Source: Algisphaera agarilytica (lineage in GTDB: Bacteria > Planctomycetota > Phycisphaerae > Phycisphaerales > Phycisphaeraceae). Taken from it: a stretch of DNA of 64,000 nt. This document shows, in pieces, positions 27,242 through 64,000 of the stretch. Position numbers and translations under genes: made by a program. The DNA is taken from NCBI RefSeq assembly GCF_014207595.1, contig NZ_JACHGY010000001.1, positions 3,752,212-3,816,211 on the forward strand, written 5' to 3'. Numbering within the stretch: position 1 is the first letter of the stretch; each line of letters starts with the position of its first letter. A model generated the notes under the pieces. That model was not told where the DNA came from and did not search any database. It was given only the letters and a program-made list of their open reading frames with translations.

Positions 27242-28447
27242 GTGGAAATCAATTACTCCAACCGCATCGAACGCCTGCCCCCTTACGTCCTGGGCCGCCT
27301 CAAGCAGATGATCTACGACCGCCGCAAAGCCGGGGCGGACGTGATCGACATGAACATGGGCAACCCGTCGGATGCCCCGCCGGACGCGGTGGTGGAGAAG
27401 ATCCGCGAGGCCGTGCTCGATCCGCGCAACAGCCGCTACTCGGTCAGCAAGGGTGTGTACAACCTGCGCCGCGACATGGCGCTGAAGTACGAGCGTAAGT
27501 GGGGCGTCGAGCTCGACCCCGACAAGGAAGTCATCGCCACCATCGGCAGCAAGGAAGGCTTCAGCCACCTCATGCTGGCCCTGCTGGGCCCGGGCGACAC
27601 CGCCGTCGTCGCCGACCCCGCGTTCCAGATCCACACGACCGCCGTGGTCCTCGCGGGCGCGTCGACGATCAGCGTGCCGCTGGGCAACGACGACTCGTTC
27701 CTCGACTCGATCGACCACGTGCTCGACTCGATGCAGCCCCAGCCCAAGCTGGTCATCCTCTGCTACCCGCACAACCCCACGGCCATGACGGTCGACGACG
27801 ACTTCTTCCCCAAGGTCGTCGAGCTGTGCCGCCGCCACAAGGTGATGGTCATCAACGATTTCGCCTATGGCGAGACCTGCTTCGACGGCTACAAAGCCCC
27901 GTCGCTCCTCCAGGCCGAGGGGGCGAAAGAGTTCGGCGTCGAGTTCACCACGCTCAGCAAGCCCTACAACATGGCGGGCTGGCGCATCGGCTTCTGCTGC
28001 GGCAACTCGAAGATGATCGACGGCCTCGCCACCGTGAAGGGCTACTACGACTACGGCATCTTCCAGGCGGTGCAGATCTCCGCGATCATCGCGATGCGTG
28101 AGGGCGACAAGCACATCGAGCAACAAAACCTCAAGTACGCCGCCCGCCGCGACATCCTCGTGAAAGAGCTCGGCAAGCTCGGTTGGGAAGTCGAATCGCC
28201 CAAGGCCTCGATGTTCCTCTGGGCGAAGGTTAACCCCGACCACCTCGTTCCGTACCAGGGCTCGACCGATGAGTTCTGCGTGTCGATGGTCGAGCAAGCC
28301 GAGGTCGCGATGACGCCTGGTGCCGCTTTCGGCCCCCGCGGCGAAGGCTATGTTCGACTCGCACTGGTCGAGAACGAACAGCGTATCCGCCAGGCCATGC
28401 GCAACCTCAACCGCGTGCTGAACAAGCCCGCGGCCGCGATTGGTTGA
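27242..28447 (+). CDS. alaC: Class I/II aminotransferase, AlaC-like
   Basis: 401 residues with a GTG start preceded by AAGAGAA. Fold-type I PLP motifs: MGNPSDAPP (40-46), the aromatic FQIHTTAVVLAGA, the Asn of CYPHNPTAMT (about 178), Asp206 in INDFAYG, and the Schiff-base Lys240 in TTLSKPYNMAGWRIGF. Best match by motif and length is the AlaC / LL-diaminopimelate-aminotransferase-related group that makes alanine from pyruvate and glutamate. The precise substrate is not settled by motifs alone; an LL-DAP aminotransferase role in lysine and peptidoglycan synthesis is the main alternative. Confidence 0.85.
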   Translation: MEINYSNRIERLPPYVLGRLKQMIYDRRKAGADVIDMNMGNPSDAPPDAVVEKIREAVLDPRNSRYSVSKGVYNLRRDMALKYERKWGVELDPDKEVIATIGSKEGFSHLMLALLGPGDTAVVADPAFQIHTTAVVLAGASTISVPLGNDDSFLDSIDHVLDSMQPQPKLVILCYPHNPTAMTVDDDFFPKVVELCRRHKVMVINDFAYGETCFDGYKAPSLLQAEGAKEFGVEFTTLSKPYNMAGWRIGFCCGNSKMIDGLATVKGYYDYGIFQAVQISAIIAMREGDKHIEQQNLKYAARRDILVKELGKLGWEVESPKASMFLWAKVNPDHLVPYQGSTDEFCVSMVEQAEVAMTPGAAFGPRGEGYVRLALVENEQRIRQAMRNLNRVLNKPAAAIG

Positions 28448-28463
28448 TCTTTCGATATAAGCC

Positions 28464-28531
28464 GTAGGGTGGGCACGGCCCACCGGATCACCTCACGCGC
28501 AACGCAAAACGGTGGGCGATGCCCACCCTAC
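28464..28531. repeat. REP-like imperfect palindrome
   Basis: Arms GTAGGGTGGGCACGGCCCACC (from 28464) and GGTGGGCGATGCCCACCCTAC (to 28531) are inverted copies with few mismatches, spaced by about 27 bases. The GTAGGGTGGGC...GCCCACC theme resembles repeats I have seen in many unrelated bacterial genomes. It sits between a stop and a converging small gene, a typical REP position. Confidence 0.75.
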
Positions 28532-28559
28532 GAAACCGTATCGATTGGATTACTGCTAC

Positions 28560-63553: not shown

Positions 63554-63835
63554 CCCGACTGGGACCCCTCAACCGCGTTTCCGGGCCGTGATTGCACCCC
63601 CACATCTTGGGGTAATCGCACGCTAATCCGCTGCTCATCCGGGCCTCACACCCCACTCATATCGAGCCTTGGCTGTGGAAAACCTGTCCCGTGGTGTCGC
63701 TACCCTGTCATCCCACCCGAAAACGCCTACCATAAACCAAACCACTAGAAAAAAGTGAATCCCGTTAAGCGCTTGAGTTCATGGCGCTTAAGGAAAACGA
63801 CTATAAATAATCACTAGGTTTAGTGAAGAAATCGG
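63554..63835. other. Intergenic region after nrnA, no gene seen
   Basis: No coding frame worth calling. Small inverted repeats occur: CCCC-(CACATCTT)-GGGG near 63600, TTAAGCGC/GCGCTTAA (63765-63772 with 63784-63791), and TCACTA-GGTT-TAGTGA (63811-63826). Base composition shifts to AT-rich from about 63720. None has a clear T-run; the structures may be extragenic repeats or upstream control sites for the RNA that follows. Confidence 0.6.
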
Positions 63836-63864
63836 TTGAGATCGCAAGATATAGTGGTTATGAT
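63836..63864 (+). promoter_or_regulatory. Strong sigma-70-type promoter at the 3' edge
   Basis: TTGAGA (63836-63841), a 17-base spacer, TATGAT (63859-63864); each hexamer has five of six consensus bases and the spacing is optimal. The predicted start, about 63871, coincides with the first hairpin of the structured element. Confidence 0.75.
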
Positions 63865-63870
63865 GGTCGC

Positions 63871-64000
63871 CGCTCAGCCAATCTGCTGAGCTTTGGACGC
63901 TAGGGGCGTCCAACGTAAGGCCATCTCAAGGGACGCCAACATACGCCGTATGGACGGTATTTGGTTGGCGTGAGAAGGCCAATGTTTAGGTGGATTTGCG
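63871..64000 (+). ncRNA. Candidate structured RNA, truncated by the window edge
   Basis: Directly after the promoter come three stems. P1 GCTCAGC/GCTGAGC (63872-63878 with 63885-63891). P2 TTGGACGC/GCGTCCAA (63893-63900 with 63906-63913). P3 is a long stem: GGCC-A-TCTC (63919-63927) with GAGA-A-GGCC (63972-63980), continuing as ACGCCAAC/GTTGGCGT (63933-63940 with 63964-63971) and closed by a CCGT-ATGG-ACGG hairpin. No open frame is seen. It does not show the RNase P, tmRNA, SRP or 6S signatures I know. It could be an independent RNA or a long 5' leader/riboswitch of a gene beyond the window. Confidence 0.6.

Follow-up and report, generated by a model that had tools for sequence, protein, structure and literature searches.

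A predicted NrdR-repressed promoter and its folded 5' leader upstream of dcd and nrdJ in Algisphaera agarilytica

At the right edge of a 64,000-nucleotide stretch of the Algisphaera agarilytica genome (the window), a promoter-like sequence is followed at once by a run of strong stems, raising the question of whether these stems form a new regulatory RNA or belong to the leader of an ordinary mRNA. A preliminary description of the window had named both, a candidate new RNA of unknown class or a leader element, and had proposed extending the sequence past position 64000 and collecting homologues in Phycisphaerae. We consider it highly likely, judging from sequence comparisons, that the region controls dcd and nrdJ and supplies their 5' untranslated leader and that it holds a predicted NrdR-repressed promoter for dNTP supply, because it contains a pair of NrdR boxes spaced by 31 bp, the pair recurs before dcd or nrdJ in relatives, and NrdR is encoded in the genome.

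Genes downstream of the promoter

Extension of the contig past 64000 brought in a fourth stem and the rest of the leader, followed in one orientation by dcd, two short ORFs and nrdJ. The dcd gene, encoding dCTP deaminase (TIGR02274, 151 bits versus a cut-off of 92.8), starts at the equivalent of position 64121 (L002 2333), which puts it about 250 nt into the predicted transcript. Because dcd lies at this distance with no intervening intrinsic terminator (no terminator-like site was found between stem C and dcd), the region reads as the 5' untranslated leader of dcd, and the earlier option of a leader element thus proved correct. The nrdJ gene at L002 4187 encodes a class II, B12-dependent ribonucleotide reductase (RNR) of 1201 aa, and nothing else in the genome matches the NrdJ model. 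The two small ORFs, for which no family match was found, occupy the gap of about 1.3 kb between dcd and nrdJ, and because of this separation nrdJ could have a promoter of its own. Among 83 dcd-bearing loci, several of them from the same genome, 63 had a co-oriented nrdJ following dcd; the others may break off too early for nrdJ to appear. The genome also encodes NrdR (TIGR00244, 180 bits versus a curated cut-off of 124.65), in which D15 and R17, the residues that contact DNA, are present. A long GC-rich inverted repeat (CCCCCGGCTCTGCCGGGGG ... CCGCCCCCGGGCAGAGCCCGGGG, L002 2905-2990) was observed past the window, between dcd and the next ORF.

A predicted NrdR box pair overlapping the promoter

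The near-consensus promoter, TTGAGA and TATGAT separated by 17 nt, is present as first described and is conserved in relatives; promoter-like sites in the region numbered 2 versus 0.1 expected in shuffles. The preliminary description missed two NrdR boxes that overlap this promoter (Table 1). The published NrdR box consensus is acaCwAtATaTwGtg, and the box usually occurs as a pair whose members are separated by a whole number of helical turns (PMC4009431). The Streptomyces coelicolor NrdR-DNA structure has its critical GC pairs at 9/18 and 40/49, 31 bp apart (PMC9110341). We took 31-32 bp as the helical-turn criterion for box pairs, 31 bp being approximately three turns. In A. agarilytica the spacing from box 1 to box 2 is exactly 31 bp, the critical C and G are intact in both predicted boxes, and the score of the pair was matched by only 1 of 5000 shuffles. 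Box 2 sits between the -35 and -10 hexamers, with dcd and nrdJ downstream, and the promoter very probably carries sites for NrdR, a known repressor.

Table 1. Predicted features of the dcd/nrdJ control region and leader (positions in the window unless marked L002)
Feature	Position	Strand	Remarks
GTGGAAAACCTGTC element overlapping DnaA-box-like TGTGGAAAA	63675-63688	+	conserved upstream of the promoter
NrdR box 1, TCACTAGGTTTAGTGA	63811-63826	+	16 bp, palindrome-like; 11/16 to published consensus
-35 hexamer TTGAGA	63836-63841	+	from promoter scan; TTG retained at the same place in most relatives
NrdR box 2, TCGCAAGATATAGTGG	63842-63857	+	16 bp, palindrome-like; fills the promoter spacer; 12/16 to consensus
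-10 hexamer TATGAT	63859-63864	+	17-nt spacer from -35; conserved in relatives
Leader stem A	63872-63891	+	7 bp; begins at or beside the predicted transcript start (~63871)
Leader stem B	63893-63913	+	9 bp
Leader stem C	63919-63980	+	16 bp in blocks of 4+4+8; A-A mismatch, 5-nt AAGGG bulge, inner 5-bp hairpin
Leader stem D	63984-64021 (L002 2233)	+	fourth stem; extends 21 nt beyond the window

Across Phycisphaerae, the box pair is seen again in front of dcd. Tandem boxes at a spacing of 31 with a combined score of at least 22 were found in 27 of 67 dcd upstream regions, compared to 0-1 in shuffled sets, and 31 was the peak among all spacings from 18 to 60 in these regions. In 26 of the 27 best-scoring pairs, both boxes keep the critical C and G. 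Within the relatives' promoters the most conserved block is CMAGATATAG, corresponding to box 2, and the -35 and -10 hexamers around the boxes are conserved as well. A strict box-pair pattern occurred once per genome in 14 of 51 family genomes (reversed control, 0). In 12 of these it lies upstream of dcd; in the other two, G016 and G023, our dcd search found no dcd and the pair directly precedes nrdJ.

Other conserved or palindromic elements lie further upstream. The GTGGAAAACCTGTC element is present in most Phycisphaeraceae dcd promoters, approximately 134-136, 146-149, 158-160 or 169 bp upstream of the NrdR boxes, and its distances from box 2 (about 135, 147, 159 and 169 bp) place it on roughly one helix face. 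The exact motif occurs a single time in the A. agarilytica genome; in other genomes the element also precedes other genes, such as one for a UvrD/PcrA-like helicase. In E. coli, DnaA activates the class Ia RNR (PMC4009431). What may be a third NrdR-like box lies in the CCCCCACATCTTGGGG region (63596-63611), about 250 bp upstream of box 2, and several relatives have similar third boxes about 156 bp upstream. Just upstream of the NrdR boxes, a perfect palindrome, TTAAGCGC-N11-GCGCTTAA (63765-63791), may be a site for an additional regulator.

The leader fold and its possible roles

NrdR control leaves the strong fold of the leader unexplained. The three strong stems first reported are all present, beginning at or beside the predicted transcript start and including a third stem of 16 bp with its A-A mismatch and 5-nt bulge. 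The segment 63866-64000 has a minimum free energy of -61.8 kcal/mol (z -4.9), and a 150-nt segment that includes stem D reaches -69.0 kcal/mol (z -5.9), with 0 of 200 shuffles as stable in either case. When the 64 kb were scanned in 130-nt segments with 25 shuffles each, the leader segment ranked 7th of 984; among the six that folded better, one overlaps the leader segment and some of the rest can be recognized as a terminator or as long inverted repeats. The fold signal is therefore real and uncommon, but not unique within 64 kb. Elsewhere in the window, a strong inverted repeat (GTAGGGTGGGC ... GCCCACCCTAC, 28406-28535, fold z about -6) resembles a mobile or repeat hairpin. The leader fold (z about -5) is stronger than in any relative tested.

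The earlier statement that the region lacks a reading frame is broadly right in that no conserved frame was found, although an ATG frame of 46 codons does run from about 63982 and continues into dcd out of frame. Such a frame of at least 20 codons is present in only 15 of 56 relatives' leaders, and an upstream ORF was accordingly rejected as not conserved.

We searched for RNA homologues by sequence and by structure. Rfam 15 at permissive thresholds returned chance matches only, the best being sR44, whose 16.2 bits fall short of its gathering score of 45; no family exceeded its gathering score. Rfam searches of the extended region gave nothing relevant, cobalamin riboswitches included, and a tRNA/tmRNA search found none. 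In a DNA search of 100 relatives, matches were confined to the promoter region and short chance hits, leaving the stems unmatched. A covariance model built from the single sequence recovered only itself among 50 relatives, two congeners included, and again only itself among 248 genomes sampled across the class (no homologue in the 247 others), so that the proposed collection of homologues in Phycisphaerae came back empty. An unfiltered covariance search of congeneric leaders yielded chance scores only, and RNAalifold on three congeneric leaders gave a poor alignment and no common fold. The leaders of the congeners are unrelated in sequence to this one, and the element is single-copy in the genome. 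A hairpin near the transcript start of orthologous leaders appeared suggestive on a redundant set; on the non-redundant set it was not significant (z -0.96 at the start, paired p=0.14), and a conserved 5'-terminal hairpin was dropped as a candidate. With no structural homologue in the 50 relatives or the 247 class genomes and no terminator before dcd, the candidate new RNA of unknown class is not supported, and the leader stems are better explained as a folded 5'UTR peculiar to the species than as a new RNA class.

The stems could instead lack any role as RNA and be features of the DNA, either palindromes bound by proteins or the decayed remnant of a hairpin-rich insertion. This would concern the stems only and is compatible with the NrdR promoter. 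The antisense strand also folds strongly, with a z of -5.0, and the unrelated leaders of the congeners point the same way; yet the sense strand is more stable (z -5.9), an advantage that comes through G-U pairs and stem D, and the single occurrence of the element in the genome means that it is not a current repeat family. Stronger folding of the sense strand lends mild support to an RNA-level role of the leader, and we regard the DNA-level explanation as unlikely. A cis-regulatory RNA, whether a riboswitch, an attenuator or a protein-binding leader, might sense a nucleotide or cobalamin and control dcd and nrdJ besides NrdR. Known riboswitch classes are widely conserved, whereas the present fold has no structural homologue in either congener, the 50 relatives or the class genomes; it also has no intrinsic terminator and no clearly sequestered ribosome-binding site. 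The very stable multi-stem fold, with its sense-strand bias, and its location in the leader of nucleotide-metabolism genes favor such an element, and cobalamin riboswitches, a known leader element of some RNR operons, have been reported for RNR operons elsewhere (PMC3848588), but here Rfam gave no match to them. On balance we regard a cis-regulatory RNA as very unlikely. We give scant credence to the related idea that the leader is a lineage-restricted regulatory RNA through which ligand or ribosome sensing would act as a second, RNA-level layer on top of NrdR in the control of dcd and nrdJ. A free-standing small RNA, suggested by the compact fold with stems from the predicted transcript start, is exceedingly improbable given that no terminator precedes dcd and that the promoter is conserved as a dcd/nrdJ promoter while the RNA is not.

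Proposed regulation and comparison with known systems

Under the NrdR-repressed promoter that we propose, RNA polymerase would start near the predicted position 63871 and transcribe the leader of about 250 nt and then dcd, with nrdJ probably on the same transcript. When dATP is high, an NrdR tetramer carrying dATP and ATP would bind both boxes and occlude the promoter; when dNTPs fall, NrdR would release and the dNTP-supply genes would be expressed. The stacked 5' stems most likely serve a generic role, for instance shielding the mRNA 5' end from decay, or else may be a neutral, species-specific feature of an otherwise fast-evolving leader; both generic 5'-end protection and neutrality are conjecture. 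Stem-loops of the E. coli ompA type at the 5' end stabilize mRNA. Our leader likewise has a stem-loop at or beside the 5' end of a long leader, with no sequence relation to the ompA type and with a stabilizing role that is conjectural here.

Promoter occlusion by NrdR is the part of this scheme that is well supported by sequence, and occlusion by the NrdR tetramer has been established for other RNR promoters (PMC9110341). Our locus resembles the nrdRJ promoter of S. coelicolor (PMC9110341) in several respects: two palindromic NrdR boxes about 31 bp apart overlap the promoter, each box keeps its C and G, NrdR has D15 and R17, and the target is a class II RNR. The first gene, however, is nrdR in S. 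coelicolor and dcd here, and the centre of our box 1 reads AGGT in place of the AT-rich ATAT. In Propionibacterium acnes, a box pair likewise overlaps one promoter of the class II RNR operon nrdRJ, with transcript starts that were mapped there and are only predicted here (PMC3848588).

We found no paper on NrdR control of dcd in planctomycetes in open-access literature text. The locus also carries a caution, since strong folding next to a convincing promoter, when met at a window edge, can be nothing more than an mRNA leader. The predicted NrdR-type dcd/nrdJ promoter is the more solid finding than the RNA fold. An apparent orphan RNA thereby becomes a specific, testable regulatory prediction for Phycisphaerae, namely that a single conserved promoter would place dCTP deaminase and class II ribonucleotide reductase together under NrdR control.
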